From a virus: DNA of 50,564 nt. Below the pieces are notes generated by a model that worked only from the letters and a program-made list of their open reading frames with translations, did not search any database and was not told the DNA's origin. The position numbers were made by a program, and so were the translations under genes. Location: the IMG/VR virus record IMGVR_UViG_3300034691_000007, positions 1-50,564 of that record, one strand, 5' to 3'. Shown piece by piece: positions 27,512-41,423 of the stretch (positions are counted from its first letter, which is position 1; the number at the start of each line of letters is the position of its first letter).

Positions 27512-29201
27512 TTTCATTCCAATAGAGTGGGAAGTTACCACTGGCACCGAACTCTCGGTCTTCCAGTAACTTGAGATTACGCATATTACGGATAGGTCCC
27601 GGCAGTTCAGGGTCTTTGTTACCTTCAAGCGCAAGCATGAGGTTACAACTACGCATCATTGCACGGCTACCAGCGAACTGGCTGGACGTTACATCACCAC
27701 CAAGTTCATGAGGGCAGTTACCAAGGCCGATGTACTTGTTGTCCTTGTACTTCTTGAGTCGTTGTTCCTGACTGATGTTGCCTTCAGGAGCTTTCAAGTG
27801 GACAAAGATGAACACTACAATGTTGAGGTCAAGAGCCATAGCCGCAAGTTCTTGGGCGATTTCTTGGAGCTTGGTGTTGGCGTCAGCCGCATTAACACCG
27901 TTGGTGAGGTTTGTGATCGGGTCAATGAATACCGCTTTTGCACCCCATGCCGCAGCAGCGTAAATGTCTGCTTTGAGAGTTTCCCATCCAAGGTGCTGAT
28001 AGAGATTGACCATAGACAATTTGCCTTTAAGTATCTCACCAGCTTTGTCATATGCTTCGTAGTCAAACTCTTTATCTGGGTCATGGAAGATTTTCCCTAC
28101 AATCTTACCGGCCATGAGCTTATACGTCTTGGCGTTTGCCTCTTCAGGCTTAGCCATGAACACTTTAATCTCGTGGTTCTTAACAAAGTGAGCAGCCAAG
28201 GCGTTCAGCAGCTCGCTCTTGCCCATCTTAACACCAGCCCCGATGTAGATAGTCTCACCGTAGCGGATGCCCCTTGTGATGTCGTTCAAGTCCTGCCAAG
28301 GCCATGTAAGCTCACCGTACTTGGCTGGCTCACGGGCTGACTCATGCATATCCTCACCGAACACAAGACGAGTGTTCTTCTTCTTCTCAGCTTTCCACTT
28401 AGCAGCTTGATAGGCTGCCTTGCCTTTACCCTGCATCAGACACTCATTAGCATCTTTGAGTGGCAGGTTAATGACATGGACATCTGGAAGAATCTTACAC
28501 ACTGCGTCAACTGCTGCATGTCCTGCATCATCGTCATCAAAGCAAAGACTAATCTCTTTGAAGTGCTTACGAATCTCAGGGAGCAGACGTGCTATGTCAC
28601 GCTCAGCAGAAGCAGAACCATGAGGCAAAGAAACAACTGCTGGGATGGTGTCACGGTACTGTTCCTTCTCATAGATTTGGAAGATTTTGGCAAGCGCAAT
28701 AGCGTCGTTCTCACCTTCCGTAATGATAAGACGTCGTGCTCCTGACTCTTTAGCCAACTGCCAACCGAACAGATCAACATCCTTTTGATCACCAATAGAC
28801 CAGAACTTCTTACCATCAAGAAGTTTGACTTTGTAGGCTTTGAACTCGTTCCCGCTGTAATACGGGAAGAACTGAAAGGTTGGTGTCTTACCGTCCTGTT
28901 CGCTTACACCAATCTTGACACCGTACTCACTAAGGATGTCAGCTCGCAGCTTACGGTCTGGTAGGTCAATGGTTTGGTAGCCATGGATTTCCTCCAACTC
29001 TGCTGCAATTTCTTCCTTAGTCTTACGCAAGCGCTGTGCTTGAGGGATGTCCTCAGCCCGCTTGCCGTCACCCAAAGGGTGAGCTACACGTTTCTTACAG
29101 GAAAAGCAATACCCGTCAAGGCTACCGTCTTCTTGCTCGAAGACCTGTAGACCATCACGGCTCCCGCAAGAGTGTGGTAGTTTAATCAGGCATTGCCCCA
29201 T
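27486..29201 (-). CDS. Primase-helicase (T7 gp4-like)
   Basis: A 571-aa bifunctional protein. Its N-terminal zinc-binding site uses H10, C12, C32 and C35 and would read the primer template. TOPRIM motifs are TEGENDAIA (161-169) and FDDDDAGHAA (221-230). The RecA-like hexameric helicase has Walker A GAGVKMGKSE (321-330) and Walker B FIDPITNL. It is preceded by the repeated promoter-like element at 29242-29273, suggesting its own middle promoter. It overlaps the sigma-like gene at its end. Confidence 0.95.
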   Translation of the reverse strand: MGQCLIKLPHSCGSRDGLQVFEQEDGSLDGYCFSCKKRVAHPLGDGKRAEDIPQAQRLRKTKEEIAAELEEIHGYQTIDLPDRKLRADILSEYGVKIGVSEQDGKTPTFQFFPYYSGNEFKAYKVKLLDGKKFWSIGDQKDVDLFGWQLAKESGARRLIITEGENDAIALAKIFQIYEKEQYRDTIPAVVSLPHGSASAERDIARLLPEIRKHFKEISLCFDDDDAGHAAVDAVCKILPDVHVINLPLKDANECLMQGKGKAAYQAAKWKAEKKKNTRLVFGEDMHESAREPAKYGELTWPWQDLNDITRGIRYGETIYIGAGVKMGKSELLNALAAHFVKNHEIKVFMAKPEEANAKTYKLMAGKIVGKIFHDPDKEFDYEAYDKAGEILKGKLSMVNLYQHLGWETLKADIYAAAAWGAKAVFIDPITNLTNGVNAADANTKLQEIAQELAAMALDLNIVVFIFVHLKAPEGNISQEQRLKKYKDNKYIGLGNCPHELGGDVTSSQFAGSRAMMRSCNLMLALEGNKDPELPGPIRNMRNLKLLEDREFGASGNFPLYWNENDGLFKQV

Positions 29202-29241
29202 CTATTTCTCCAATGGTTGTTATTAATACTCTAGGACTTAT

Positions 29242-29273
29242 CTAGAGTCTTTTAGCGAGGAAAAAGATACAAA
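29242..29273 (-). promoter_or_regulatory. Phage promoter-like element, copy before primase-helicase
   Basis: Read on the minus strand: TTTGTATC (29273-29266), T-tract, A-tract, then AAAAGACTCTAG ending at 29242. The spacing from TTGTATC to CTAG is identical to the copies at 49794 and 39505. It sits 41 bases before the primase-helicase start and points at it. It is best explained as a promoter for the phage sigma-like factor or a host-RNAP promoter under phage control. Confidence 0.6.
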
Positions 29274-29480
29274 TTATTTTCTAAAGAAAACTCCTTGCTC
29301 CAGCATCCCATTATCGCCCATGAGCGCTTCGATATACTCCCGACAACCGTACATGTATCGGAAGTCTGCATCTTTGTAGACCTTCTTAGCACGATCGACG
29401 ACTTTAGGTTCAGACTTCAAGTAGCCGTTACGTGCTTCGTTCAGGTCAATACGCAAACGATTTAATTGATCGAGGGTCAT
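29274..29480 (-). CDS. Hypothetical basic protein (68 aa)
   Basis: A 68-aa helical, charged protein (LNEARNGYLKSEPKVVDRAK). Its stop abuts the promoter-like element at 29242-29273, so it is the last gene of the amide-ligase transcription unit. Its start overlaps the stop of a 17-codon frame. No family recognised. Confidence 0.62.
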   Translation of the reverse strand: MTLDQLNRLRIDLNEARNGYLKSEPKVVDRAKKVYKDADFRYMYGCREYIEALMGDNGMLEQGVFFRK

Positions 29481-29530
29481 GGTCTTGTCCCTCGCTTAAG
29501 CATGAACATGAGAGCCACTAAAGCAATCAT
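29477..29530 (-). CDS. 17-aa hydrophobic micropeptide or coupling leader
   Basis: A very short frame (MIALVALMFMLKRGTRP) with GGAG before its ATG and a stop overlapping the next start (ATGA). It is either a tiny membrane peptide or a device that brings ribosomes to the next gene. The sequence is short enough to be chance, but the ribosome site and overlap favour translation. Confidence 0.38.
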   Translation of the reverse strand: MIALVALMFMLKRGTRP

Positions 29531-29569
29531 GACAGTTACTCCTTACAGGAACAGGGCAGACGCCCTTGG

Positions 29570-30328
29570 TTACAGTTGCAGAAGTTCCTTGAAACGGGCG
29601 ACATAGCCTTCAAGCGTCGTGCCTGTAAGGCCCGGAGCAGTGTTGACTTCAAGGACATAAGCCATTTGATGCTTGTCATTCCAGATAACATCGACAGCTC
29701 CAAAGTCTAGGCCGGTCACTTCGATAGCCTTGACGGCTTGCTCAGTTACCATGGCCGGTGGGTTAACGTCGTTACGGACGAAGACAAAGCCGTTATGGTG
29801 ATTGCGCACCTTCCAGTTAATCTTGCCGTCCTCGACTTCCTTGTTACGTGCCTTGCGCTGGATGTCAACAACCTTACCGCCCAGCACATGGATACGGTAC
29901 TCATCTTTCTTGGGTACGTACTTGACGTACAAAGGGGCGTCAACGATACGATCACCAGCTTCGATGATGACGATGCCCTCACCACTATGGCCGGTCAACT
30001 TCTGACGAGCCACAACAGTAGCCCCATCAGCCAGCCAACCGGCCACAACATTCTTGTCAGTGGTGAAGGATGGGATGACTACATCACCCTCCACCGTATT
30101 GAAGAAGGTCAGCTTATTGGTGGCGTTAGCTACCTTTTCGCCGGGGTTATAGACTTTCAGCCCATTGTATGCAGCCGGAGTAGCAGAGCTACCCCAGTTG
30201 ATGATCACGTCAGCGGCCTTGGGACGCCACTTGCTGCCCTCAACTTTGAGGACTTTGATGTCGAGGCCAGCGGCCAATGCCTTAGCACTGGCGCTGCCTT
30301 GCTTGTATGCATACAACTTAGTAGTCAT
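29570..30328 (-). CDS. ATP-grasp amide ligase (RimK-like)
   Basis: A 252-aa ATP-grasp enzyme that activates a carboxylate as acyl-phosphate and joins it to an amine. The glycine-rich loop is TGHSGEGI (112-119), the adenine-site region is [14 protein letters not shown] (132-145), and the metal site is D213 with E227-V-N229 in [11 protein letters not shown]. Start ATG 30328 has GAGGAAG upstream and overlaps the amidoligase gene. In phiEco32-type phages an ATP-grasp gene accompanies COOH-NH2 ligases and amidotransferases. It would make a peptide-like bond in the same product. Confidence 0.88.
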
Positions 30329-31832
30329 GGTTATCTTCCTCTTGTTCCATTGCTTCACGAGCAAGGCGGGCCATTACTTGGGTCAGGAACACTTTGTATG
30401 AACCCGGTTTGTCTTCACGTTTCAGGCGCACCAACCAGTCATACTCTTCACGAGTAAGTTCATCACGGGTCAGGCCTACCTGTTGAAGCGTAGGGAATGG
30501 CACAGGCGGGATGCCGTGGCCATCAACCTTGTTAGCCACTTGGGCTGCCTTAGGTGGGACCTTAATCCATTCAGGCGCCTTAGCAGCGGCCTTGATTTGG
30601 CCAGCCATGAATGCATCACCCAATGCAAGCTGAGCCATTCCGGCCATCACCCGACGGTCATGGACATATGGGATGTCACGAGCGGTAGCCTTGAAGTATT
30701 CGTTAGGCACCCATGCAGCAGCCATACCCTGTGGGCCATTGTTAAAGGCAGCGCCATAACCTACCAACATAGAGTTACCGTTGTCCTCATCCTTGGCCAT
30801 CCACACAATCTGACCACGTTTGAAGCCACAGGTGTCCTTCAGAATCTCTACAGAGACCCACTCTTCAGGATCAACCCCTTCAGGGATTGGCTCTACTGGC
30901 TCCTTGTATGGGTTGGCGATGAAGCCTACCGGGGCCTTAGGAACACGAGGCTTAGGTGCTGGGCGGTTGCCTTCCTCACCAAATGGCATAGGAATCTCGA
31001 AAGGATTAACAACCTCCTGTTCGTAGAACTTCTGCCAGTTAGTGCAGAACGCTACGTCCTGAGCACGACGAACACCAGCCAGTACCGACGACTTCCAGTT
31101 TGGATACTCCAAGAACAGGCCTGCGTTGTCCTTCAGGCAACGATTCATGAACAGTTGTACGTCACCACCACTGAAGGAGTTAACGACGTCTGTAGGGTCT
31201 GTGAAGGTCTTGGCTACTTCACGCAGGCCATGCAGAATCTCAGCCCACTTGTAGATCAGGTCGAGGTCACGAGTACCACGCATGGCACGGAACTCAAGCG
31301 AACCGTATGTGCCCAGTGCCTTGACGTTCATCGAAGCGTAACGCAGGTCATCGCTGACAAGGTTACGGAAGCGACGGGTCTTGGCTGCTTCTTGCAGCGC
31401 ATACAGCAGGAACTCTGCATCACCAGTGCGCAGACAGAAGAGGTTGCCTTCACGGTGCGGCCCACAGAACTTGGTCAGTACATCTTCCAAGATAATGTAG
31501 ATGGTGATGAAGTTGTACAGCTCGACGATGTTCAGGTGCTGTACGTTAACGTGAACGTGTACACCAGCCCGAACGGTGTCGTCAACTACCGAGCCGAACT
31601 TCTTGTACATCACGTTCAGATACTTCAGCGCGATGTCAGCTTCTTTCATGGACGAAGGCTTGGCAAGAACATACTCCATGTTCTCCTCGCCACGCAGGCT
31701 ACCATCCTTCTCCATCTTCCAATACTTATCGACTTGAGGGAGGTTCTTACCTTCCACCTCAATCTCGATACCAACGTCACCCTTGGTCATGAAACCTTTA
31801 GGGATGAGGAACCAATCAGCGACAGTCTTCAC
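30318..31832 (-). CDS. Amidoligase-2 family COOH-NH2 ligase with C-terminal extension
   Basis: A 504-aa protein whose first 220 residues are glutamine synthetase-fold amidoligase. VGIEIEVEG has E23 and E25 for Mg-[12 protein letters not shown] carries the paired His of the ligand strand, and [12 protein letters not shown] closes the fold. About 280 further residues contain a beta-rich segment ([20 protein letters not shown]) and a basic helical end; this extension was not recognised. It probably forms an amide between a carboxylate and an amine or ammonia. It overlaps genes on both sides. Confidence 0.87.
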
Positions 31833-32377
31833 AATACTTCCTCCAGAGCTTCACGTAGAAAGTGGCTCTCAGCATTCAGAACAGGCTTACCATCTTCGAT
31901 GGTGCCAACCACATTACGTTTGTGCCAAAGACGCAGGCCGCTGTCAATTGCCCACTCACGGCACCATGCCATAGAGTGAACACGTTTCTTTGTAATCTCT
32001 TCCAACACCTTGGCGAAGGTAGGATATTTGCCAAGGATTACTTGGCCAACATCCTTGTAACTCAGCGCCTCAGCAGGGAAGTCACCGATGGCAGTGAAGT
32101 TCCCGAAGCGTAGGCCTTGACGCCAGTCACGACGCATAGGCTTACGCATCAGGTAAGCTACCGCACCACCACGGTTGCAGTAACCGAGACGGACAGGGTG
32201 CAGGTCAAGTTCATCAACCTTTACCTTGAAGAACGTCTCGATGCTGTCGAGGTAAGACACGGTAGCTGTCATGCCACGTTGCACACATGTTACGAACACG
32301 GGCTTGCCGTCATACACCACGACAGTTTGTTCTAGACGAGAGTTTGCATACTCGTGATCGTTACCATACATACTCAT
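31829..32377 (-). CDS. Conserved-context protein between the two amidoligases
   Basis: A 182-aa protein overlapping the 504-aa amidoligase by 4 bases (ATGA). The N-terminal part ([20 protein letters not shown]) looks like a beta-barrel. The middle has [20 protein letters not shown] and [13 protein letters not shown] recall similar proteins between amidoligases in phiEco32-like phages, but no enzymatic motif is visible. It could be a substrate-presenting or regulatory partner. Function unknown. Confidence 0.7.
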
Positions 32378-32389
32378 GACACGTTACCT

Positions 32390-33238
32390 TTAGGCGAGGT
32401 TGAAAGTTTTAGTGCGGCTGTTGTAGCCCGGTGGCAATGGGCAGCCACTACGTTTGAAGTAGTCTTCAATGGTGCGGGTATCGAACACACCAGTGATGAT
32501 GGTCCGTGCCTCGCCACCATGTTGGCCGTAGGCAATACCTTCAGACAGATCGGACATGGACTTCTGAGTTACCTCGAAGACCCATTCCATCAGGGCCTTG
32601 GACTGCAACCATGCATTGCTCAGGGTGCGGTACTCAACACCGTAAGACTTCGGACGGAAGCAACCGGGGGCACCGTACAGTTGACGACGCTTGCGGCCTT
32701 CAGGACCACCGTCAAACAACAACGAACCCAGGCCAAGCGACCAGTCCAATTGCTTAGAGGCCATGACGCAGGCCTCAAGGTGGACAGGGTCATCAGTAGG
32801 GATGCTTGCACCCCAGCCGATGTGAACGTGACCAGCAGCAGTACGGAAAGGAACCTGACCGTTAGGCCGTGGGTTAACCCCACCGTTGGTGTAAGCGTCG
32901 AAGTCAGGCTCACAGCCCAGCTCCAATGCTTCCATTGGTTGTGCCTTGATGTACTCAGCACCGAACTCTGCCACTGGGCAGGACTTCAGGGTATAGCCCG
33001 GCACCATGCTGGTGAGGGTTGCCAGTACAGCTTGGATGTTACGGGAGAACTCTTCCTTGCTGGACGCAGGGTCGATGTTGAACTCCAGTGCCATGCCATC
33101 CACTTGGACAGCGCCATGCTCTACCTTGAACGGGTTCTTCTTGTCGCCTTGGATAGCGCCATGTGCAGAGACAGGCTTACCGGCTTGGTCGAACATGAAG
33201 ATTTCTGGATCAGCGCCAACGAGAACTTGAAGTGCCAT
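32390..33238 (-). CDS. phiEco32-like COOH-NH2 ligase, type 2
   Basis: A 282-aa glutamine synthetase-fold ligase. The signatures are VGADPEIFMFD (D10 and E12 metal ligands), VQVDGMALEFNIDPA, and RTAAGHVHIGWG. These are the marks of the phage COOH-NH2 ligase type 2 family named after phiEco32. Start ATG 33238 has GAGGG eight bases upstream; the longer frame overlaps the amidotransferase gene by 143 bases and is unlikely. It is a second, distinct ligase for the cassette, lying next to the class II amidotransferase that could supply ammonia. Confidence 0.9.
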   Translation of the reverse strand: MALQVLVGADPEIFMFDQAGKPVSAHGAIQGDKKNPFKVEHGAVQVDGMALEFNIDPASSKEEFSRNIQAVLATLTSMVPGYTLKSCPVAEFGAEYIKAQPMEALELGCEPDFDAYTNGGVNPRPNGQVPFRTAAGHVHIGWGASIPTDDPVHLEACVMASKQLDWSLGLGSLLFDGGPEGRKRRQLYGAPGCFRPKSYGVEYRTLSNAWLQSKALMEWVFEVTQKSMSDLSEGIAYGQHGGEARTIITGVFDTRTIEDYFKRSGCPLPPGYNSRTKTFNLA

Positions 33239-33239
33239 G

Positions 33240-34652
33240 TTATTTACCCTCGGTTTGTTTGATGTAGTCCGCAACATCTGTGAAGTCCTTGCAGTCCGGG
33301 CAGATGAATTCCGACGGACCAACAAAGACGATATCATCTGCCTCTTCGAGACAGGTGTCTTGCTTGCACCATGCACAGCCATTCTCTGTGGCTTTCTTGA
33401 ACTCCGCTGGAGTCAGGAGTTCTCCTTTGTACCCTTCAAGAAGGACAGGAAAGTCGGCATCATCCAACTCCTCGTCCCCACTCATCAGGGCTGTAGCTTT
33501 TGGATCTTCCATGATCGAACGCAGATCAATGGTCAAGTGCATGCCACCATTGCTGGTGAACGACTTAACCATGCCCTTGAACGCCATTGTACTGCCGAGG
33601 AGTTTCTTCCACAGCGCAGTGCCTTCACCCGGATAGCAACGAATGCTGATGCGCTCGTCGTCGATGGCGTAGCACTGTATGTACTTCTGGTTAGCAGCAG
33701 TCGCAGCACATTGCACAGTGAAGGCAACGTTCTTGTTCATGCGTTTCTGATACTCCATAAAAGACGCGTTGCCAGATACGATCCGAGGCCGTTCCTTGCC
33801 TTCAAGACGACTAACAATATCTGTGACAGTACCCACAGCTTTCGACTCAGGTCGGGGAGTCACCAAGGCAGGCTTTCTTGGAAAGGGTTCGTTTACCTTG
33901 TTGCCCCCATAGTAAGTGCCGGTGTTGTACACTGGTGGGGTGTAGAGTTCACACTTGACAGCCACTGGCTTGTCGAACTCTTTCGCAGTAGCGAGAGGGC
34001 CGAGGGGTACGTCGAAGCGGTAGTGAACACCGATTGGAAGCTCTTCGATCTTGCCCAGCTTGACCACTGCATGATGAGCAGCAACAGTCAACATCCATAC
34101 CTCTGATGCCCAGAACAAAGACTTCTTGTCATCGCTGAACACGTAGAACAATGGACGCTGATCGTTGCGGATGAAGTTCAGCGAGCGATCTTTCTTGTCC
34201 CACCATGTCAGGGCAAACGCACCGTTGAGCTTAGGTGTCGTCTCCTGAATGCCATGGTTTTCCATGTGGTGGAAGATGTTCTCGCTGTCAACGTCGAACT
34301 TGGCGTGGTCGTCAAGCTGGTAGCGAGTGGTCAGTGTGCCGTTGTGAGCACCGATGATGGTGTCAATCTCGAACGGGTGAGCATTCGTGTTGTTGATCTT
34401 GCCTTGAGTGGCCCAACGATTGTGGCCCATCAGCACAGAGTGAAACAGACGGAACTTCTCATCGACAGCTTTGAACTGGTAGAAGTCCCACGGTGTACCA
34501 ACACGCTTGATAACTTCAGTTGCACCAGCAGAGCTGACGAACAATACGCCAGTCGAATGTGGACCACGCACTGTATCGAATTCCAGCAGACGTTTGAACA
34601 TACGTTCTTCGTTGCTTCCCAGTTTACCAGCAGCGCCTACAAGTCCACACAT
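33240..34652 (-). CDS. Class II glutamine amidotransferase (Ntn hydrolase) with zinc tail
   Basis: A 470-aa protein whose N-terminal half releases ammonia from glutamine. C2 is the nucleophile after Met removal (MCGLVG). Glutamine-binding motifs are RGPHSTG, GHNRWATQG, NAHPFE and GAHNGTL. The synthetase half of GlmS or asparagine synthetase is absent. Instead a middle region precedes a C-terminal zinc ribbon: CAWCKQDTC, then FICPDC. The ribbon may dock substrate or partner. Ammonia could go to the neighbouring ligases; alternatively it transfers gamma-glutamyl groups or hydrolyses amides. Confidence 0.88.
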   Translation of the reverse strand: MCGLVGAAGKLGSNEERMFKRLLEFDTVRGPHSTGVLFVSSAGATEVIKRVGTPWDFYQFKAVDEKFRLFHSVLMGHNRWATQGKINNTNAHPFEIDTIIGAHNGTLTTRYQLDDHAKFDVDSENIFHHMENHGIQETTPKLNGAFALTWWDKKDRSLNFIRNDQRPLFYVFSDDKKSLFWASEVWMLTVAAHHAVVKLGKIEELPIGVHYRFDVPLGPLATAKEFDKPVAVKCELYTPPVYNTGTYYGGNKVNEPFPRKPALVTPRPESKAVGTVTDIVSRLEGKERPRIVSGNASFMEYQKRMNKNVAFTVQCAATAANQKYIQCYAIDDERISIRCYPGEGTALWKKLLGSTMAFKGMVKSFTSNGGMHLTIDLRSIMEDPKATALMSGDEELDDADFPVLLEGYKGELLTPAEFKKATENGCAWCKQDTCLEEADDIVFVGPSEFICPDCKDFTDVADYIKQTEGK

Positions 34653-34679
34653 AATAAATTCCTTCCAAAAATTGGGTAG

Positions 34680-35387
34680 TTAAACAGCTTCTACTTCAAA
34701 GGGATGATGCCCATGAGCAGCACGATGACGTTGGATTACTTCAACCTCTTCGGTCTCATATTCCTGAGCTTCTTCTACAGCGATGGTCCGTTCAACCATC
34801 ACGCCAGTCCGGTTACTGACCCGAGTAGCGTAATAGCGAATGTTGCGAGGGGCTGCACCACGGATGAACAGACGATAAGGACCAACTTCTTCGTCCTCCT
34901 CTTCCTCTTCATCATTAAAGAGGTCCCAGTCAGGAAGCTCCTCTTCGGCTGCTACAGCTTGAACTTGGAACGGGTTGACCGCTGGTGCAGGTTCAGCAAT
35001 GAAACGTCCCTGAGCGTCTCGTGGGCGCTCCTGAGCCTGCTTCTCTGCTATCACAGCGTGTTCTTCAGGTTTAGCTGGCTCTTTCCAGCCTTGAACATGA
35101 AGGTAGAACAATTCGATGGTCACTTCAGGGTGACGATCCTTGCTTGCTGGACCAGTACCAATGAAGCCAAGGTCTTTTAGAACCTTAGCCGCAGTGGTTT
35201 GTTCACTGGTCAGGATGGCAGTGACAATGCCATGACGAGTGCAGTTGTTTACCTTACCAACTACCTCACGCCACAGCTTGTCATACTGCACAGCATTGTA
35301 GCCATACTCACTTGTGTGGCTTTCACCAAAACTTGTGAGGATGTCGGCTGTACAGCAACCCTCAAAATCATGTTTCTGAACGGCCAT
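34680..35387 (-). CDS. Cassette protein with acidic/Pro linker, function unknown
   Basis: A 235-aa protein with AGGAGG before its ATG. The N-terminal 100 residues form an alpha/beta domain (CCTADILTSFGESHTSEYGY). A linker rich in Pro, Gln and Ala and then in Glu/Asp (residues about 110-170) follows. A C-terminal beta segment, RLFIRGAAPRNIRYYATRVS, ends in a His-rich tail. It is encoded between the two amidotransferases. It may be a substrate or scaffold of the cassette. No family recognised. Confidence 0.65.
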   Translation of the reverse strand: MAVQKHDFEGCCTADILTSFGESHTSEYGYNAVQYDKLWREVVGKVNNCTRHGIVTAILTSEQTTAAKVLKDLGFIGTGPASKDRHPEVTIELFYLHVQGWKEPAKPEEHAVIAEKQAQERPRDAQGRFIAEPAPAVNPFQVQAVAAEEELPDWDLFNDEEEEEDEEVGPYRLFIRGAAPRNIRYYATRVSNRTGVMVERTIAVEEAQEYETEEVEVIQRHRAAHGHHPFEVEAV

Positions 35388-35434
35388 ACAGCCTCCTAAA
35401 TTTTCTCAGGTTAATTAAGCGCTTGGCTATCCCG

Positions 35435-35605
35435 TTACAGGGACTCGAAGCGTCGGTCGTATTCGATCAAGGCATCATCTGCCTCAATAGCGGCGAGGGT
35501 TGCACTCTTACCACTGGCATGTGCCGTCTGGAAAGCCTTAACCCAAAAGTCTTTACGACCTAGGGACTTAGCCAAACCTTGACGGCGGATGAGTTCACTG
35601 TCCAT
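35435..35605 (-). CDS. Small basic hypothetical protein (56 aa)
   Basis: A 56-aa helical protein (RRQGLAKSLGRKDFWVKAFQ) starting in a TAATG overlap with the class I amidotransferase stop. It is basic at the N-terminus and acidic at the C-terminus. Being translationally tied to an amidotransferase, it could be a cassette component or acceptor peptide, but that is inference. Confidence 0.65.
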   Translation of the reverse strand: MDSELIRRQGLAKSLGRKDFWVKAFQTAHASGKSATLAAIEADDALIEYDRRFESL

Positions 35606-36234
35606 TACTTAAGCCCGATAGTACGTTCGATGAGTTGGAAGTACAGGTCAGTACAAGACTGGACACCATACTCAGGGTGTGGCTGGAAGCACAGACTGTT
35701 AGTGTCTGGATACCAAACGCATTCAACATCAGGATAGCCGGGGTCGGCCTTTGTCTTGATGGTGTCGTTCTCCAACCATGTAGCTTCGTTGGCACGTACC
35801 AACACAGCACCACGTTCACCTTCACGCATCATTTGGTGATGAGTGGAAGTTACTTGAACTTCGTCGATCACGTCACCATCTACGCCGATAACATAGGCAA
35901 CGTGAGTACCATGGATAGCGTGACCATTGACGTGTTGCCACATCTTGCCGCCGTTCATGACGTTGAGGAACTGACCACCACGACAGATGCCGATGCAAGG
36001 CTTGCCCAACATGTGGGCCAACTGGTAGTAACCCATTTCAATCAGGTCACGGCGAGGGTCATTGCCAGTGGTACGGTGATTCTTCTCACCGTACAGGAAG
36101 GGTGATACATCGGAGCCACCAGTGAACTGGAACACGTCAGCTTGAAGGGCATCAGCTACCACTTCCCAGCCAGCACGCTCAAACATTCGCTGAATAGCGC
36201 CATCACCACCTACGATATAAACCTTATTGGGCAT
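35605..36234 (-). CDS. Class I glutamine amidotransferase/gamma-glutamyl hydrolase-like (peptidase C26)
   Basis: A 209-aa hydrolase with a complete Cys-His-Glu triad: C84 in GICRGGQF, H186 and E188 in FQPHPEYG. The early segment FTGGSDVSPFLYGE and DPRRDLIEMGYY match the PuuD/gamma-glutamyl-hydrolase branch, which cleaves gamma-glutamyl isopeptide or amide bonds. Start ATG 36234 overlaps the previous stop. In the cassette it may trim or remove glutamyl groups added by the ligases, or supply ammonia. Confidence 0.88.
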   Translation of the reverse strand: MPNKVYIVGGDGAIQRMFERAGWEVVADALQADVFQFTGGSDVSPFLYGEKNHRTTGNDPRRDLIEMGYYQLAHMLGKPCIGICRGGQFLNVMNGGKMWQHVNGHAIHGTHVAYVIGVDGDVIDEVQVTSTHHQMMREGERGAVLVRANEATWLENDTIKTKADPGYPDVECVWYPDTNSLCFQPHPEYGVQSCTDLYFQLIERTIGLK

Positions 36235-37204
36235 AGCCAATTTCCTTGAACAGTACGTGTTGGAACTCAGCCCACTTGGCCCAAGCTGTTTTAACATCGG
36301 CGTAATCTGTTTCACGCCGAACTGGACGAGCAGCAGCGAATGGATTAGCCACGGCGTCAGCGTCTACCTTCTGAGCTACCTCGTCCTTCCAAGGGAAGTT
36401 GTTGGCAATCCAGACGTGAGCAGTGCCCACCTTGTAGCGGTCCTTTTCCTTGACGAACATGTTGCTGTAGCCCTGATAGCTCTGGTCTTCAGAGTAAGAC
36501 TTGTTCAGGTGCCACGGCTTATGCTCAAGGAAAGCCTTGAGGTCAGCCAAGTCCATGCTCTGGACGGCGAGGTTCATGTGACCACACTCAGCCTCGCCCC
36601 ACTTGATTGACTTGTTGTTGTTGGTGTACTGGCTGGACGCAGCGAGGAAGTAAGCGAGGTCTTCGTTAACCCCTGCCTCGACAGCATCAAGCCATGCCTT
36701 CTTGATGCGCAGTGTTTCCCACAGACGCCTGATTGCTACACCACCACCAACCATGAGGTTAGAGGGTGCCTTGGCATCCATGATGACAGAGCGCTTCAGT
36801 GTGGCGTACTTGGCAGACTTACTTACGAATGCCTTGGACCATGGCGAGCGATTGATAACCCAGTCCAGATACTTCAGGTCTTCAGCAGCACCACGTTTCT
36901 TGCCGGGGCCTTTGTCTTCGTCGCCGTAGTAGTCCTTGTAGTCCTTCTGGATGCCTACAATGAACGCCACGGAACCACGACCGTTGCCCGGCTTACCTTG
37001 GATCAGGTCAGGCTGATTGGCCGTGTTCTTGTTGTAATACTCTGCCATGGAAGCAAAGCAGTTGGTTTGTGGGCACATGAACGTGTGGTCAGGATGCACC
37101 ACAGCGAACGATGTACACTGAGTCCACTGCTTAGGATTCTTGTCCATCCAAGTCAGGAACTTGTGTTGACCACGCAACGCTTGCCAGAAGTCTTCCCGTT
37201 TCAT
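36224..37204 (-). CDS. Uncharacterised 326-aa protein heading the amide-ligase cassette
   Basis: Start ATG 37204 has AAAGG seven bases upstream; a longer frame would read through the 82-aa gene. The protein is mixed alpha/beta, rich in Lys and aromatics, with a Cys/His pattern near the N-terminus (TQCTSFAVVHPDHTFMCP, then QTNC) that could bind a metal. A Gly-rich segment APSNLMVGGGVAIRR lies mid-protein. There is no recognised family. Its tight overlap (11 bases) with the C26-type gene suggests it acts in the same system. Confidence 0.68.
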   Translation of the reverse strand: MKREDFWQALRGQHKFLTWMDKNPKQWTQCTSFAVVHPDHTFMCPQTNCFASMAEYYNKNTANQPDLIQGKPGNGRGSVAFIVGIQKDYKDYYGDEDKGPGKKRGAAEDLKYLDWVINRSPWSKAFVSKSAKYATLKRSVIMDAKAPSNLMVGGGVAIRRLWETLRIKKAWLDAVEAGVNEDLAYFLAASSQYTNNNKSIKWGEAECGHMNLAVQSMDLADLKAFLEHKPWHLNKSYSEDQSYQGYSNMFVKEKDRYKVGTAHVWIANNFPWKDEVAQKVDADAVANPFAAARPVRRETDYADVKTAWAKWAEFQHVLFKEIGYAQ

Positions 37205-37214
37205 GACGTAACCT

Positions 37215-37463
37215 TTACAGTTGAGTGAAGGACTGGCCAGCATAGTGGCGTTTGACATACTGGCTGATGTTGCGCTGGCAACCTTCAGACAGCTTGACTT
37301 GAATTGGCGTGATGGTCTGCATGATTTGCTTACCATCCTGCCCCAGTGCAGCAGTTGGGACCAGATAGCCTTTGTGCTGAATTTCAACATAAGAGCGCTC
37401 CGGTTGGCCGATGAAGTCACGTTGTACCAGTTTACGAATACGTTTAGCTACTGTGCCACGCAT
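37215..37463 (-). CDS. Basic hypothetical protein (82 aa)
   Basis: Start ATG 37463 has AAAGGAAA seven bases before. Arg/Lys-rich N-terminus (RGTVAKRIRKLVQRDF), a short beta segment and a basic helix near the end. It may bind nucleic acid. An inverted repeat with CTAGTGTG arms lies 35-86 bases upstream, so this gene may begin a new transcription unit that leads into the amide-ligase cassette. Confidence 0.62.
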   Translation of the reverse strand: MRGTVAKRIRKLVQRDFIGQPERSYVEIQHKGYLVPTAALGQDGKQIMQTITPIQVKLSEGCQRNISQYVKRHYAGQSFTQL

Positions 37464-37497
37464 GATACTTTCCTTTCGTTGGGTTAGTGAAGCTGCA

Positions 37498-37549
37498 AAG
37501 CACACTAGACCATTTAGAGTGGCTGGCCATTACGCCGCTAGTGTGCTTT
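37498..37549. repeat. Inverted repeat AAAGCACACTAG / CTAGTGTGCTTT
   Basis: Perfect 12-bp arms at 37498-37509 and 37538-37549, separated by 28 bases. It lies in the gap between the 50-aa zinc-ribbon gene and the 82-aa gene, and can form a strong hairpin in RNA from either strand. The octamer CTAGTGTG recurs in the 40.5-kb palindrome. It could be an operator, RNA processing site or weak terminator; there is no U-tract. Confidence 0.7.
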
Positions 37550-37558
37550 ACAAATCAC

Positions 37559-37711
37559 TTACAGGTGAAAGGCACCACAGACAGTGCATTTGTGGGCTTG
37601 CTTAGGCCCTTGTGCGCCCTTCTTCAGACAGAAGTTAGCAACACGTTGTTGCTTGCCGTAGGTAGCGTCCTGATAGCTGTTAGCACACTTACAGGTTACA
37701 ATCTTGGTCAT
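37559..37711 (-). CDS. Small zinc-ribbon-like protein (50 aa)
   Basis: A 50-aa frame with GGAGA eight bases before the ATG. Cys are arranged as CKC near the N-terminus, a single Cys in the middle (NFCLKK) and CTVC before the C-terminus, with His at KAHK-like positions, so a small zinc ribbon is plausible. It is basic. It may bind RNA or DNA, or alter a host protein as an early factor. Confidence 0.66.
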   Translation of the reverse strand: MTKIVTCKCANSYQDATYGKQQRVANFCLKKGAQGPKQAHKCTVCGAFHL

Positions 37712-37768
37712 GGTGTATCTCCGATTTTAGTTTCTGAAGTTTATTACAGGCACCAACATCGCTTAACG

Positions 37769-37882
37769 CTAGTGCATTTGGGCAATGATGCTCACTGCCA
37801 ATAGTGCGAACATCGCAAAGAACGTACCAATCAGGAGAATGGCAGCCTCATCAATGTTCTTCCCTTTGCTCGAAGTCTTCAT
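37769..37882 (-). CDS. Small one-TM membrane protein (37 aa)
   Basis: ATG 37882 lies inside the end of the preceding gene. The product has a basic N-terminus (MKTSSKGKNID) and one long hydrophobic helix (AAILLIGTFFAMFALLAVSI). The positive-inside rule predicts N-in. Function unknown; one of several tiny membrane proteins in this block. Confidence 0.6.
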   Translation of the reverse strand: MKTSSKGKNIDEAAILLIGTFFAMFALLAVSIIAQMH

Positions 37883-38060
37883 TCCACACCTTATAGCGTT
37901 GGGGGTGAATGACCGGATAGAAACCCACGGATACAAAGCCCGCTGGCTTAGTACGTTTTCGTGCGTTACTTCCATGCACAACCTTACGCCAGATGCCTTC
38001 GTCTTCGTTTTCACAAACCCAGACGCAACCGGACGAAAGTTTCTCACACATTAGTGTCAC
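37851..38060 (-). CDS. Hypothetical protein (69 aa)
   Basis: GTG 38060 is the preferred start, with AGGTGA seven bases upstream; ATG 38051 is possible. The protein is basic and aromatic (GFVSVGFYPVIHPQRYKVWN), likely a small beta domain. It overlaps the next membrane gene by 32 bases. No family recognised. Confidence 0.58.
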   Translation of the reverse strand: MTLMCEKLSSGCVWVCENEDEGIWRKVVHGSNARKRTKPAGFVSVGFYPVIHPQRYKVWNEDFEQREEH

Positions 38061-38072
38061 GATGTGTTCACC

Positions 38073-38240
38073 TTACACCTTCCAGAGCCAGACTAAGTTA
38101 GCCCCCGCACCTACAACGATGTTGTAAGGAGGAGGCACCATGTATACGGCTAAGAATGTGGCACTAAGGCCGATCTTCATCAACACCAAATGTTCCATTC
38201 TTAGCCACGGATGAGCTTCAATGATGGCCTTAGTCTTCAT
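38073..38240 (-). CDS. Small membrane protein (55 aa)
   Basis: A 55-aa frame overlapping the preceding gene stop by 11 bases. Hydrophobic stretches (LVLMKIGLSATFLAVYMV and YNIVVGAGANLVWLW) could form two short helices joined by PPP. Function unknown. Confidence 0.6.
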   Translation of the reverse strand: MKTKAIIEAHPWLRMEHLVLMKIGLSATFLAVYMVPPPYNIVVGAGANLVWLWKV

Positions 38241-38418
38241 TTGCTAATCCGCCTGTAAACAGACGACTCGCAAACATGAAGAACACAACACCTCCCGCAA
38301 AGATGGTGTGTAAACCATGGCCTTCAACGACAGTCATGACAAGATAAGCGACATGGCAAGTGTGCTCACCTTTATGTGCCAGAACTTCGTGCCCCCAGTA
38401 GTAAAGCCTTGCTTTCAT
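38230..38418 (-). CDS. Small membrane protein (62 aa)
   Basis: ATG 38418 has AGGTGA upstream. The product has a soluble N-terminus with several His and one hydrophobic segment HTIFAGGVVFFMFASRLF. It is coupled to the next small membrane gene by overlap. Function unknown. Confidence 0.6.
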   Translation of the reverse strand: MKARLYYWGHEVLAHKGEHTCHVAYLVMTVVEGHGLHTIFAGGVVFFMFASRLFTGGLANED

Positions 38419-38465
38419 ATTTCACCTATGACAACTAGGCCAATGTACTACTGGCCTGTAAACAT

Positions 38466-38624
38466 CTAGCGGTTGCTAGAATTCCCTTCGCATTGCGGCC
38501 CAATCAGCAACACGGGAGACGCTAGTGTAGCCTCACTAGCGGCAATTGATTCGAGAGAGTTGTTAATCCCGACTAGGGCAAACAAGCCCCAGAACATTAT
38601 CAGGAATAGCAACGCCTTATACAT
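38466..38624 (-). CDS. Small one-TM membrane protein (52 aa)
   Basis: ATG 38624 is inside the end of the 109-aa gene. An N-terminal helix (ALLFLIMFWGLFALVGI) is followed by a soluble tail with one Cys. An internal 8-bp inverted repeat CGCTAGTG/CACTAGCG (38520-38541) lies within the gene, unusual for coding DNA and shared in theme with other sites nearby. Function unknown. Confidence 0.6.
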   Translation of the reverse strand: MYKALLFLIMFWGLFALVGINNSLESIAASEATLASPVLLIGPQCEGNSSNR

Positions 38625-38946
38625 GATTGAAACCCGCCAATTCCAGATACTTGGCACGCAAACCCACTGTACGAGGCAGCAAGTTAGGTTCCCAACGTAG
38701 CCCGTCGGACGGAATGAGGCGAGCCAGCAACTTGCTGGAGTACACATAGCCACGGCTACCGACGATGTTAATATCATCTTCAGCCAGACGGCTCACTGCG
38801 TCTCGCAAGTCGAACAAGTCCTTTGCTACTTTGACTTGCTGAGTGAACAGACGAATACGCTCCAATGACACTGGAACCAGTTCCACAGCGTCTTCAAGAG
38901 CACGGTTTCCGTTAGATACATGAAAGGAACCACCGATAACGAGCAT
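38617..38946 (-). CDS. Hypothetical protein (109 aa)
   Basis: A soluble 109-aa alpha/beta protein with LERIRLFTQQVKVAKDLFDL (helix) and RLAEDDINIVGSRGYVYSSK. It has GGGG before the ATG. No signature found. It is the largest soluble member of this block of small early genes. Confidence 0.62.
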   Translation of the reverse strand: MLVIGGSFHVSNGNRALEDAVELVPVSLERIRLFTQQVKVAKDLFDLRDAVSRLAEDDINIVGSRGYVYSSKLLARLIPSDGLRWEPNLLPRTVGLRAKYLELAGFNHV

Positions 38947-39000
38947 AGATAACCCCGTGAGGCTCTGTAAGCCCCTGTAGGACGTTTTAAGGACACTGCC

Positions 39001-39213
39001 CTATGAAGGGTAGCGGGTATTGTTAATGTCTGCCTTCTGAGCACTCTCAGGCAGGCTGCTCAAACTGTCGTCATGATTGGTATGAAACCAATCGTCGTTT
39101 TCAATTGCTGCCCAAAATGGCAAGCGCTGGCATTGCATAACCGCACAGAAAAGACTTATGGCCATGATGCCAAACGCAACGCACAAGCCAATGAACGCAT
39201 AGATTAAGAGCAT
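39001..39213 (-). CDS. Small one-TM membrane protein (70 aa)
   Basis: ATG 39213 has AAGGATA upstream. The N-terminal 30 residues are very hydrophobic (LIYAFIGLCVAFGIMAISLF), followed by a soluble acidic and His-containing tail that would lie in the cytoplasm or periplasm. Not a cleavable signal: no clear cleavage site. Function unknown. Confidence 0.64.
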   Translation of the reverse strand: MLLIYAFIGLCVAFGIMAISLFCAVMQCQRLPFWAAIENDDWFHTNHDDSLSSLPESAQKADINNTRYPS

Positions 39214-39225
39214 GGCGATATATCC

Positions 39226-39363
39226 TTAACCAACCTTACGTTGATATACAGACGCCAATGCAACGGCCTGATACTTCCTATCAGCCGTATCTACAATGAC
39301 GCCATTGAACATAACCCACCATGCAATACGGGCGGGTGAACGCACTACCGTTACAGCAGACAT
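39226..39363 (-). CDS. Small hypothetical protein (45 aa)
   Basis: ATG 39363 overlaps the previous stop by 13 bases and follows a GAAGAAGAAGAAACGGA purine run that can act as ribosome site. A 45-aa product with a short hydrophobic centre (RIAWWVMFNGVIVD) and basic end. Possibly a beta hairpin domain. No family recognised. Confidence 0.55.
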   Translation of the reverse strand: MSAVTVVRSPARIAWWVMFNGVIVDTADRKYQAVALASVYQRKVG

Positions 39364-39488
39364 TCCGTTTCTTCTTCTTCATCGCCAACGCTTACAGACT
39401 GGCTGTCACCATCGCAGACAAAGGCTTGACCACCTTCGACATAGCCCATATACGCATCGGCTAAAGATACATTTGCATAAGTATTCAT
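39351..39488 (-). CDS. Small acidic protein (45 aa)
   Basis: ATG 39488 has GAGGG upstream in GAGGGTAAAAATAA. The product carries a very acidic C-terminus (GDEEEETECLL) and could mimic DNA or bind a basic partner. It is the first gene after a bidirectional terminator, so a promoter must lie between 39490 and 39590. Confidence 0.6.
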   Translation of the reverse strand: MNTYANVSLADAYMGYVEGGQAFVCDGDSQSVSVGDEEEETECLL

Positions 39489-39504
39489 TTATTTTTACCC
39501 TCGG

Positions 39505-39542
39505 TTGTATCGTTTTGTCTAGAAAACGACTCTAGTATAGTA
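39505..39542 (+). promoter_or_regulatory. Phage promoter-like element, copy facing right
   Basis: TTGTATC (39505-39511), 11 bases, then AAAACGACTCTAGTATAGTA (39523-39542). It is identical in the last 20 bases to the copy before the scaffold gene at 49794, with the same spacing. Here it points to the plus strand although flanking genes are on the minus strand, so it would give a short antisense transcript ending at the 39594 terminator, or it works as a site read in both directions. Confidence 0.6.
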
Positions 39543-39593
39543 TACTAACTATTACTTACTTCTATTACTTCTTACTACTTCTAACTAAACCTC

Positions 39594-39625
39594 AAAAGCC
39601 TACTAGTAATTACTAATAGGCTTTT
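39594..39625. terminator. Bidirectional terminator
   Basis: AAAAGCCTA (39594-39602) and TAGGCTTTT (39617-39625) with TAGTAATTACTA between them make a 32-bp near-perfect palindrome with one mismatch. T-runs are present on both strands. It lies 8 bases after the 186-aa gene, ending that leftward transcript, and can stop a rightward transcript from 39505. Confidence 0.83.
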
Positions 39626-39633
39626 ATTGTTTG

Positions 39634-40194
39634 TTAAGCAGCCTTGTCTGCTGCCTCTTGTTCTTCTTGGCTAACGATAGCCTCGAAGTTACAGATAGCG
39701 AACAACTGTTGCATGGTAGCCTCGTTAACATGCATGTTCACTTTCGCTTGATCTTCTGGCGTCATGCCTTTGACCTTTTCTTGCGTCTCCTTGTGCTTTT
39801 TCAGCACGTTCTGAAGCGCCGCTTCAAGATCAAAGCCCTTGAATGGTTGTTGCAACTTCAAGTCCCACCACATTGTGGCTTTAGCGTCATTGAACGCTTT
39901 TTCAATGTAGTCCTTACCTTTCCAATCAACGAAAGCGCCCTTTTCTTCGTCAATCGACAGACCGCCGAACTTAACAAAGAATTCCACCAGTGCTTTGCCG
40001 TTGATAGTGTTACCCAACGAGGTTACAAGGCTGGTAGCGGCGCTGTAGTCGCCATGCTTGAAGGCATGGTACAAGACACCTACAGCGGCCTGCTGTACGT
40101 TAACACGGGCGGTCTGTACAGACTTGACAGCCTTGTCGCACAGTTTAGCCAGTTCGGCGGCGTCTTTAGGCATTACATATTTGATAGCGGTCAT
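39634..40194 (-). CDS. Phage early protein, conserved type (186 aa)
   Basis: A 186-aa helical protein with GGAG nine bases before the ATG. The sequence pattern AKLCDKAVKSVQTARVNVQQ, then HGDYSAATSLVTSLGNTING and KALVEFFVKFGGLSI, is one I recognise from many podovirus early regions, where it is annotated as hypothetical. It ends in an acidic Ala/Glu/Gln tail. It may be a DNA-binding or host take-over protein. Followed by a bidirectional terminator, it appears to be abundantly expressed as an independent unit. Confidence 0.72.
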   Translation of the reverse strand: MTAIKYVMPKDAAELAKLCDKAVKSVQTARVNVQQAAVGVLYHAFKHGDYSAATSLVTSLGNTINGKALVEFFVKFGGLSIDEEKGAFVDWKGKDYIEKAFNDAKATMWWDLKLQQPFKGFDLEAALQNVLKKHKETQEKVKGMTPEDQAKVNMHVNEATMQQLFAICNFEAIVSQEEQEAADKAA

Positions 40195-40246
40195 GGTTGT
40201 AACTCCAAATTAGTTTCTAGGGTTTATTGCAGCGGTCGGCATTGCA

Positions 40247-40510
40247 TTACTGCTTGTCTTTCCACACCTTGTTAATGGTTGCGCACTTAACGCCACTGCC
40301 TCGGGCTTGACGCTTACCATCTGGATTCCAGAAGCCAGCAACCTTGCCCATTGAGACAACTTGCTTAACCTTCTTTTTGTGGCTGGCCTTCAAGTTACGG
40401 TATTGACGTTTCGCATCAAGGCTACCGTCAAGTAACAGAGCGTCAACCAGTTGAAACGTGCGGCTCGCTAGAGGTTTGCTAACGAGTGTATGATGTTTGC
40501 GTTTACTCAT
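40247..40510 (-). CDS. Basic early protein (87 aa)
   Basis: An 87-aa Lys/Arg-rich protein (MSKRKHHTLVSKPLASR, NLKASHKKKVKQVV) with a strong AAGGAG before its ATG. The charge suggests nucleic acid binding. It is preceded by a 41-bp near-palindrome (40529-40569) and the structured RNA region, so its expression may be controlled by leader structure. No family recognised. Confidence 0.68.
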   Translation of the reverse strand: MSKRKHHTLVSKPLASRTFQLVDALLLDGSLDAKRQYRNLKASHKKKVKQVVSMGKVAGFWNPDGKRQARGSGVKCATINKVWKDKQ

Positions 40511-40528
40511 TTCTATATTCTCCTTAGC

Positions 40529-40569
40529 GTTTACCTAAACACACTAGACTATAGTGTCCTTAGGTAAAC
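40529..40569. repeat. 41-bp near-perfect palindrome
   Basis: GTTTACCTAA (40529-40538) and TTAGGTAAAC (40560-40569) are perfect 10-bp outer arms. The middle (CACACTAGACTATAGTGTC) is itself mostly palindromic; 17 of 20 base pairs match about the centre at 40549. It is 19 bases upstream of the 87-aa gene start. It is a candidate operator or a strong RNA hairpin; on the minus strand it contains TATAGT, which could be a -10 box. Confidence 0.75.
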
Positions 40570-40604
40570 CCTTACGGGTTTTGCTCTTTACGAGACTTCA
40601 AAGG

Positions 40605-40890
40605 GTGACGTGTTACGTTATCGTCACGACTAAGGCTAGTAGCTCACTGCTCACGGGCCTTTGCTATCAGGCGAATGTCAGTCGGCACTTTGGGCACTAG
40701 CTGGCCCCCAAGATACGCTTGGTCGTTTGGGCGGTTTCTGAGCACCGTAGCTCCAGCCGCTTATAGTCTCGACGTGACAATCAGACCTTATTCAGTGAAC
40801 TACGCCATTCAAGGCTGCGCCCAAAGTGTCCAGACTAACCCGCCCTACCTGCTAGGACATACAGTTTGGTTAGAAGCCCCGAGGCCCGTT
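40605..40890 (-). ncRNA. Candidate structured RNA/long leader
   Basis: No frame fits here, but the minus-strand RNA folds strongly. A long-range helix pairs 40838-40819 with 40695-40678 (18 bp with two single-base bulges, core CACTTTGGGC/GCCCAAAGTG). Inside are CCAAG/CTTGG (40722-40708), GAGC/GCTC (40753-40740) flanked by GCGG/CCGC, and GTCT/AGAC. Downstream is AAGGC/GCCTT and GTGACG/CGTCAC (40627-40605). It starts just after a consensus sigma70 promoter (40908-40935). It may be an antitermination leader, riboswitch-like element or a free small RNA. No Rfam family was recognised. Confidence 0.5.
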
Positions 40891-40907
40891 TGCCTCTTGT
40901 TGGGTTA

Positions 40908-40935
40908 AGTATACAGCATTCTGTCATTGTGTCAA
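40908..40935 (-). promoter_or_regulatory. Sigma70-type promoter for the structured RNA and early genes
   Basis: On the minus strand TTGACA (40935-40930), 16-base spacer, TATACT (40913-40908): six of six at -35 and five of six at -10. Transcription would start near 40901 and enter the structured RNA and the 87-aa gene. Confidence 0.75.
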
Positions 40936-41013
40936 GCCTCATTTTTCTATCTAGGCTTAATCCAACCGGCCAGCATTGGTTAACCCTAACCGTTGCCTGT
41001 GCTGTGAGTCCGT

Positions 41014-41043
41014 AGTGTATGTCGCTAGGCACTGCATTGTCAA
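41014..41043 (-). promoter_or_regulatory. Probable sigma70-type promoter
   Basis: TTGACA (41043-41038) on the minus strand, 18-base spacer, TACACT (41019-41014, four of six). It overlaps the stop of the 46-aa gene and would add transcription to the region below 41007. Confidence 0.5.
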
Positions 41044-41180
41044 CTGAATATTAGTAGCCATTCACAACCGTCATGCGTTGGTTCAATGTGAGTTAACTCA
41101 CAATCAAACCCATCTGCTATATAGCTTTGCATGTAGTTCGTTGCTACGTCAAGACACTTATAGTAACGATAGTATTTCAT
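41040..41180 (-). CDS. Small early protein (46 aa)
   Basis: A 46-aa frame starting in the ATGA overlap with the 47-aa gene stop. Tyr-rich N-terminus (MKYYRYYKCLDVATNYMQSY), three Cys in all. Being second in the first leftward transcript, it is a host take-over candidate. A perfect 16-bp palindrome (41087-41102) lies inside the gene. Confidence 0.6.
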   Translation of the reverse strand: MKYYRYYKCLDVATNYMQSYIADGFDCELTHIEPTHDGCEWLLIFS

Positions 41181-41320
41181 GACTGGCTATACCAGCGAAC
41201 ATACCACACTTGTTCGCCATCCTCTAGCACAGCTTCAAGCATTACCTTATAGCCTTTGCTCTTATAATAGTTGCGCTTAGCTTTAGCCTTAGCCCAATTA
41301 GTATATCGTTCTTTGATCAT
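41177..41320 (-). CDS. Small basic early protein (47 aa), first gene of the leftward block
   Basis: A 47-aa frame with GAGGG eight bases before ATG 41320. The N-terminal half is a basic amphipathic helix (KERYTNWAKAKAKRNYYKSK); the second half is a beta hairpin with WYVRWY. The boxA-like site and early promoter are immediately upstream, so this is probably the first phage protein made. The likely role is binding host RNA polymerase, ribosome or nucleic acid, by analogy only. Confidence 0.62.
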   Translation of the reverse strand: MIKERYTNWAKAKAKRNYYKSKGYKVMLEAVLEDGEQVWYVRWYSQS

Positions 41321-41367
41321 GGTCAAGCCCTCATTATTAGAGTGCCTACCGATCATACACTACAGAT

Positions 41368-41379
41368 TGTTAAAGAGCG
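41368..41379 (-). promoter_or_regulatory. boxA-like antitermination element
   Basis: On the minus strand CGCTCTTTAACA (41379-41368), followed by ATCTG. Eleven of twelve bases equal the bacterial rrn boxA (TGCTCTTTAACA), the RNA site bound by NusB-S10. It starts about 10 bases after the predicted start of transcription from 41395-41423 and precedes the first early gene, where lambda-type and rrn-type antitermination sites act. Confidence 0.68.
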
Positions 41380-41394
41380 GTGGAACATGTAGCC

Positions 41395-41423
41395 ATTGTG
41401 CCGTTTGTTCGTGTTGCTGTCAA
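41395..41423 (-). promoter_or_regulatory. Early sigma70-type promoter
   Basis: TTGACA (41423-41418) on the minus strand, 17-base spacer, CACAAT (41400-41395, four of six). It directs leftward transcription starting near 41388 through the boxA-like site into the two small early genes. Confidence 0.65.

Follow-up and report, generated by a model that had tools for sequence, protein, structure and literature searches.

Phage gene cassettes built around amidoligases have been described before: the authors of the PSA-HP1 paper name a "peptidoglycan modification cassette", citing Hardies 2013 and Iyer, and list it in RIO-1-like phages, phiEco32, 7-11, PA11, tf, MR299-2, LUZ24, PaP3 and CW02 (PMC5498523). 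Later papers trace the concept to Iyer 2009 and Hardies 2013, which are given here as those papers relay them; in addition, a 2025 paper repeats the peptidoglycan-modification reading for the LUZ24-like phage U17 (PMC11945000), the TC6 paper lists the same enzyme set, and the ZRK32 authors propose a role in nitrogen metabolism for a homologous gene set (PMC10945688). In the literature on the cassette, we found no experiment on its product. Here we analyzed the 50,564-base virus record IMGVR_UViG_3300034691_000007 (the window, within which cassette coordinates are given) and found that its genes between 29570 and 37204 are an intact Zobellviridae-type member of this published phage amidoligase cassette, comprising both amidoligases, a class II glutamine amidotransferase (GATase II) with its C2, an ATP-grasp ligase with its D, E and N residues, a trimming enzyme and the gene order beside primase/helicase. 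The original prediction on this DNA had taken the locus for an undescribed system, a claim that falls, since the cassette is already named in print (PMC5498523, PMC11945000) and its closest relatives in culture, PA11 and TC6, have it as well. As to its function, we favor, with rather better than even confidence, a glutamine-fed synthesis and editing of gamma-glutamyl or peptide amide bonds on a cytosolic acceptor.

The window gene calls place nine genes in a tightly packed run on the minus strand, from 37204 down to 29570, with start codons picked by homology; the predicted span matches the U1 start and the ATP-grasp end exactly. In the order of transcription, the genes are:

36224..37204, minus strand: U1, a predicted core protein (326 residues; residue conservation and AlphaFold2 model)
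35605..36234, minus strand: C26 gamma-glutamyl hydrolase-like protein (209 residues; PF07722, E=5e-19)
35435..35605, minus strand: small protein (56 residues; phrog_13068, E=2.8e-5; weak TC6 homologue)
34680..35387, minus strand: phrog_8299 accessory protein (235 residues; phrog_8299, E=3e-14)
33240..34652, minus strand: GATase II (470 residues; PF13522, E=8.9e-19)
32390..33238, minus strand: COOH-NH2 ligase type 2 (282 residues; PF14395; phrog_3815, E=5.9e-79)
31829..32377, minus strand: U2, a predicted core protein (182 residues; phrog_11055, E=1.8e-45)
30318..31832, minus strand: Amidoligase_2 protein (504 residues; PF12224, E=1.3e-8; phrog_7469, E=1.2e-97)
29570..30328, minus strand: RimK-like ATP-grasp ligase (252 residues; phrog_2599, E=1.2e-90)

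The junctions from U1 to the ATP-grasp gene measure -11, -1, +47, +27, +1, +12, -4 and -11 nucleotides, with four overlaps and a largest gap of 47 nucleotides. Exactly four of the nine proteins belong to none of the five enzyme families, where three to four had been predicted, and one of these, the phrog_8299 protein, is present in a minority of the cassettes among the loci compared.

All five enzyme families named beforehand were borne out by Pfam or phrog matches. Iterated profiles were built from annotated relatives and members were aligned across 115 loci, with about 90-115 relatives per active-site comparison. Measured against the Pfam cut-offs, the amidoligase scores 35.5 bits vs. 22 (PF12224, Amidoligase_2), the COOH-NH2 ligase 30.5 vs. 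25 (PF14395), the GATase II 68.2 vs. 27 (PF13522) and the C26 protein, which qualifies for the Peptidase C26 superfamily, 69.4 vs. 20.5 (PF07722); the ATP-grasp protein lies slightly under every Pfam cut-off and is placed by its phrog_2599 match. Loss of active-site residues had been set as the observation that would count against the prediction, and none was lost in the alignments with relatives: conservation is 1.00 at D213, E227 and N229 of the ATP-grasp protein (112 rows), at C2 of the GATase II (97 rows), at D10, E12, H137, H139 and R184 of the COOH-NH2 ligase, which keeps 28 of 28 invariant columns, at E23, E25, E27, H92 and H94 of the amidoligase, and at C84, H186 and E188 of the C26 protein, the residues of the ATP-grasp and C26 proteins having been correctly numbered in the original prediction. 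The GATase II also carries the motifs GHNRWATxG...NAHPF and HNG, together with a C-terminal CxxC...CxxC of four cysteines, each at 1.00 (97 rows), which is probably a zinc ribbon; its resemblance to GlmS and asparagine synthase is confined to the N-terminal glutaminase part (46.2 vs. 418 and 32.7 vs. 267 for the respective equivalogs). The nearest solved structures are alpha-L-glutamate ligases/RimK for the ATP-grasp protein (best 7qys and 4iwx) and Lin1909, 7d4r and PuuD for the C26 protein. The ATP-grasp protein misses the curated RimK cut-offs (Pfam 19.6 vs. 21; NCBIfam 26.6 vs. 143.4 and 19.5 vs. 331), and the C26 protein misses the PuuD-type equivalog NF008471 of NCBIfam (27.8 vs. 266). 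An extra C-terminal part of the amidoligase does exist, as had been noted, but the 280 residues assigned to it include a part common to relatives; only about 190 residues (310-504; window 30318-30900) lack a counterpart in all the loci examined. This extension holds an SH3-like-looking motif, FKRGQIVWM; a kinship with small SH3-like proteins was tried with profiles and was not significant.

Gamma-glutamyl amides are the substrates of PuuD and other C26 hydrolases, and gamma-glutamylamine cyclotransferase (GGACT) opens gamma-glutamyl-amines. The window cassette has C26 and no GGACT gene, and elsewhere the two appear to be exchanged. The comparison took in the 83 loci in which the ligase is flanked on both sides by 3.9 kb or more: C26 alone occurs in 60 of them, both enzymes in 12, GGACT alone in 10 and neither in one, so that GGACT is found in 10 of the 11 cassettes that lack C26 vs. 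12 of the 72 that have it (Fisher p=2.5e-6, uncorrected for common descent). In Slicky01 (L009) and HP1 (L020), GGACT occupies the exact C26 slot, between U1 and GATII (the GATase II gene), as confirmed by Pfam PF06094 (E=4.7e-22 and 1.6e-20). Together with the known activities of the two enzymes, this replacement, which is new here, points to a gamma-glutamyl-amide bond in the substrate of the cassette or in a by-product. The notion of a system that makes and trims an amide linkage thus gains from the presence of three predicted ligases alongside a trimming enzyme that is replaced by GGACT in other phages.

U1 and U2 look like core parts of the cassette and not bystanders, because the gene order is conserved and counterparts matching in size or fold stand at the same places in other phages. 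All 68 U1 members keep C49, R159 and H209, and 67 of them keep E163, although their identity to the window protein is just 13-32% or so; judging from these residues, U1 is probably a Cys-dependent enzyme of the Cys-His(-Glu) type. Its AlphaFold2 model (predicted local distance difference test, pLDDT, 84.4; predicted template-modelling score, pTM, 0.87) matched no PDB chain by fold even at E=1, and the PDB sequence searches with U1 and U2 gave no match; the family may represent a new enzyme fold. The viral fold matches of U1 were to proteins of RIO-1, CW02, CVT22, GAP52, LAh_8 (two proteins), 4_4572 and Proteus 3H10_20, all at E<=0.02, and most of them are proteins of other cassette phages; the proteins encoded upstream in phiEco32/LUZ24-like cassettes resemble it weakly by sequence profile and better by fold. 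In almost every locus U2 separates the two ligases, and LUZ24/phiEco32-like phages have a protein of U2 size with weak sequence similarity in that place. The AlphaFold2 model of U2 (pLDDT 96) yielded weak SH3/KOW/Tudor-like fold matches only; searches of viral contigs with diverse U2 members and with single proteins gave no usable matches. SspH of Pfam was considered for U2 and rejected (20.9 bits, under the cut-off of 25). The placing of both proteins in the core is new here and makes that core fuller.

The order U1-C26-GATII-ligase-U2-amidoligase-ATP-grasp-primase holds in most of about 110 loci, with the position of the ATP-grasp gene sometimes shifted; the same order in dozens of loci excludes chance. 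Relatives of the COOH-NH2 ligase were found by tblastn in 316 of 50,697 phage records and in 497 viral-contig stretches, as compared with just 12 loci from a set of 84,980 genomes of bacteria and archaea; each of these 12 belongs to a metagenome-assembled genome (MAG). The 12 MAG contigs (L103-L114) include Crocinitomix, Colwellia, Patescibacteria and Dojkabacteria. Several of these contigs, 46-50 kb long with full cassettes, look like misbinned phages, and the ligase family appears to be essentially phage-borne. The cassette is an exchangeable accessory module, gained and lost as one unit: it is accessory because it is absent as a whole from four related Zobellviridae, ICP2, VPMCC5, 1.264.O and 521E56-1, whose terminases are 58-72% identical to that of the window and in which every cassette profile, as well as an independent ligase search, was negative. 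An orthologous primase is kept in three of these four (E<=1e-234). Upstream of it, the cassette slot of ICP2 (L118, 33357-36230) holds CobT/CobS-like genes, and the other cassette-less slots, in Vibrio phages (L119, 15119-18656; L120, 39564-44754; L121, 28297-32660), hold coiled-coil and membrane-helix genes. Shared order and loss as a unit agree with the original prediction of one enzyme system.

The window terminase is 79% identical to those of the Pseudomonas phages PA11 and TC6 (Zobellviridae), and a search with the window found no near-identical DNA in phages. The cassette lies just upstream of the primase gene, and beyond the ATP-grasp gene come those for primase, sigma factor and DNA polymerase. 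Scans for promoters and terminators gave matches at chance level only, and no anti-phage defence model matched. As a separate observation, phage ZRK32 (L014, OP650935) has the gene order and families of a LUZ24-like Pseudomonas phage, yet a planctomycete host is assigned to it; this host assignment may deserve a check.

As to reactions, partner pairs and acceptor, we infer the following. The class II glutaminase would free ammonia from glutamine and feed the neighboring COOH-NH2 ligase, which would amidate a carboxylate, or couple it to an amine, via an acyl phosphate; the second glutamine-synthetase-like amidoligase and the RimK-like ATP-grasp enzyme would join on more amines or amino acids through gamma- and alpha-peptide linkages, while C26 (GGACT in other phages) would hydrolyse gamma-glutamyl-amide bonds, thereby editing or recycling the product. 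A further Cys-dependent activity probably belongs to U1, and U2 probably serves for binding or as a scaffold. Iyer and co-workers reportedly put the COOH-NH2 ligase in the glutamine-synthetase-like fold, and its gene and that of GATII are adjacent in most loci; because the glutaminase adjoins a ligase of this fold, glutamine-fed carboxylate amidation is the simplest reading. The acceptor would be cytosolic, a peptidoglycan precursor being the published guess, and the position of the cassette among replication genes suggests action before lysis. Several points weigh against this proposal: 1) scores stay below the cut-offs that NCBIfam sets for its RimK, Ddl, GlmS, AsnB and PuuD-type hydrolase equivalogs, and the exact reactions therefore cannot be read from the sequence; 2) a PDB sequence search returned no solved relative for the COOH-NH2 ligase or the amidoligase; 3) the literature yielded no assayed activity for any cassette enzyme; and 4) the C26/GGACT test ignores shared ancestry, with both enzymes present in 12 loci.

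Among the alternatives, the one that survives best has the phage amidate or extend, by unusual linkages, the stem peptide of host peptidoglycan or the cytosolic precursor of that peptide, so as to exclude co-infecting phages or to time lysis; we regard it as a serious contender, if on balance doubtful. Bacterial peptidoglycan amidation likewise employs glutamine-dependent amidotransferases, and all named hosts among the phage matches listed are Gram-negative species; however, no cassette domain is specific for peptidoglycan, and the genes are placed with replication genes and not with lysis genes. This view is published for RIO-1-like and LUZ24-like phages (PMC5498523, PMC11945000), in each case, within the literature found, as a prediction only.

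That the product is a small molecule, with gamma-glutamyl amines or peptides storing or recycling nitrogen or polyamines for the phage as a metabolic helper module, strikes us as not very likely. The closest enzymes to the C26 protein are indeed PuuD and further gamma-glutamyl hydrolases of the amidotransferase-like kind, but three different ligases and two core proteins exceed the needs of a simple gamma-glutamyl-amine cycle. The nitrogen-metabolism role proposed for the homologous ZRK32 set points the same way, although the cited part of that article does not link the growth effect of ZRK32 to the cassette homologues by mutation (PMC10945688).

We consider it unlikely that the acceptor is a protein, such as a ribosomal or RNA polymerase protein, to whose C-terminus or side chains glutamyl or peptide groups are added so as to redirect the cell. 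The nearest solved ATP-grasp relatives, the alpha-L-glutamate ligases, do include RimK, the ribosomal protein S6 ligase, and about 17 cassette phages carry a genome-specific, mostly acidic C-terminal peptide that is lacking in five cassette-less phages. However, most cassette phages, the window included, have no such tag, and so the cassette does not depend on it; in addition, the tags FKGN and KGNK are not acidic, and the control set is small. In each of these roughly 17 loci, numerous small proteins that are otherwise unlike one another share one C-terminal peptide: LENE in CVT22, LENK in Asterion, LEND in Pecta, EEN[VIL] in CW02 and GD[TR][ED][ED]DI in Rhizobium phage RHph_I3_11, with EDIWL, F[KR]GN, KGNK and others elsewhere. 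The tagged small proteins lie at (coordinates of each locus):

L115 (CVT22), 28002-43249: tagged small proteins
L006, 2493-15595: tagged small proteins
L008, 3518-15432: tagged small proteins
L010, 1017-16266: tagged small proteins
L018, 182-2940: tagged small proteins
L022, 5054-11156: tagged small proteins
L042, 7503-13318: tagged small proteins
L062, L076, L081, L092, L099, L103 and L116: tagged small proteins, further loci

Over the last four codons, synonymous differences (pS) are saturated at 0.6-1.3 and the peptide is near constant, a constraint not seen in the upstream codons; the low nonsynonymous differences (pN) arise partly by construction, the members having been picked by their tails, and the saturated pS is the informative part, arguing that the peptide, and not the DNA, is what is shared. 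The CVT22 tag stands on at least two unrelated small-protein types. An origin of the tags in Shine-Dalgarno sequences or junction repeats was rejected, as some genes with no close downstream start keep the peptide with GGAG-free codons and synonymous sites are saturated. No C-terminal tag was seen in the window, T5, ICP2, VPMCC5, 1.264.O or 521E56-1. We find it quite improbable that the cassette is a protein-tagging system in which the ligases, perhaps with U1/U2, recognize small phage proteins by their C-terminal peptides and attach these through amide bonds to targets of the host or the phage, with C26/GGACT removing them. Were it so, the substrates in about 17 phages would be the small proteins sharing a genome-specific C-terminal tetrapeptide, and those of the window would be fewer or different proteins, the tag being absent there. 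That the cassette attaches amide-linked groups to phage DNA as a hypermodification that wards off restriction is very improbable. The neighboring primase, sigma factor and polymerase genes and the often nucleic-acid-binding modules (CxxC...CxxC of the GATase II, weak KOW/Tudor-like matches of U2) could be adduced for it, but no known base-modifying enzyme was matched among the replication-region genes scanned, and 11 of the 16 restriction enzymes tried on the cassette phage U17 cut its DNA, which made U17 the most sensitive among the four phages tested (PMC11945000).

The glutamine-fed synthesis and editing of amide bonds that we favor would concern a cassette of hundreds of phages, some of which infect Pseudomonas aeruginosa or Escherichia coli; it has been annotated for more than 10 years with no known product. 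The exchange of C26 for GGACT provides a testable chemical hint at gamma-glutamyl-amide bonds, and the comparison supplies pairs of related natural phages in which one has the cassette and the other does not.

Compared with the known systems, the window cassette is closest to those of PA11, TC6, CW02, CVT22 and the RIO-1-like phages, with which it shares families, order and primase adjacency; its COOH-NH2 ligase is 59% identical to those of PA11 and TC6. It differs from the Zobellviridae/RIO-1-like cassettes in the additional C-terminal residues of its amidoligase (about 190) and in having no GGACT, and the interspersed small genes of the CVT22 type do not occur in it. The LUZ24-, phiEco32- and 7-11-like cassettes share with the window the COOH-NH2 ligase, the amidoligase, the class II GATase and the RimK-like ATP-grasp enzyme, but they mostly have GGACT rather than C26, and two upstream proteins replace U1; unlike the window, the LUZ24/phiEco32-like order is ligase-(U2 position)-amidoligase-GATII-ATP-grasp-GGACT. 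Among single enzymes, the window ATP-grasp protein shares with RimK the fold and the catalytic D, E and N but scores under the RimK cut-offs, and the window C26 protein shares with the PuuD/C26 hydrolases the GICRG nucleophile elbow, HxE, SxHHQ and PF07722, while being shorter, at 209 residues, and under the PuuD-type NCBIfam cut-off.

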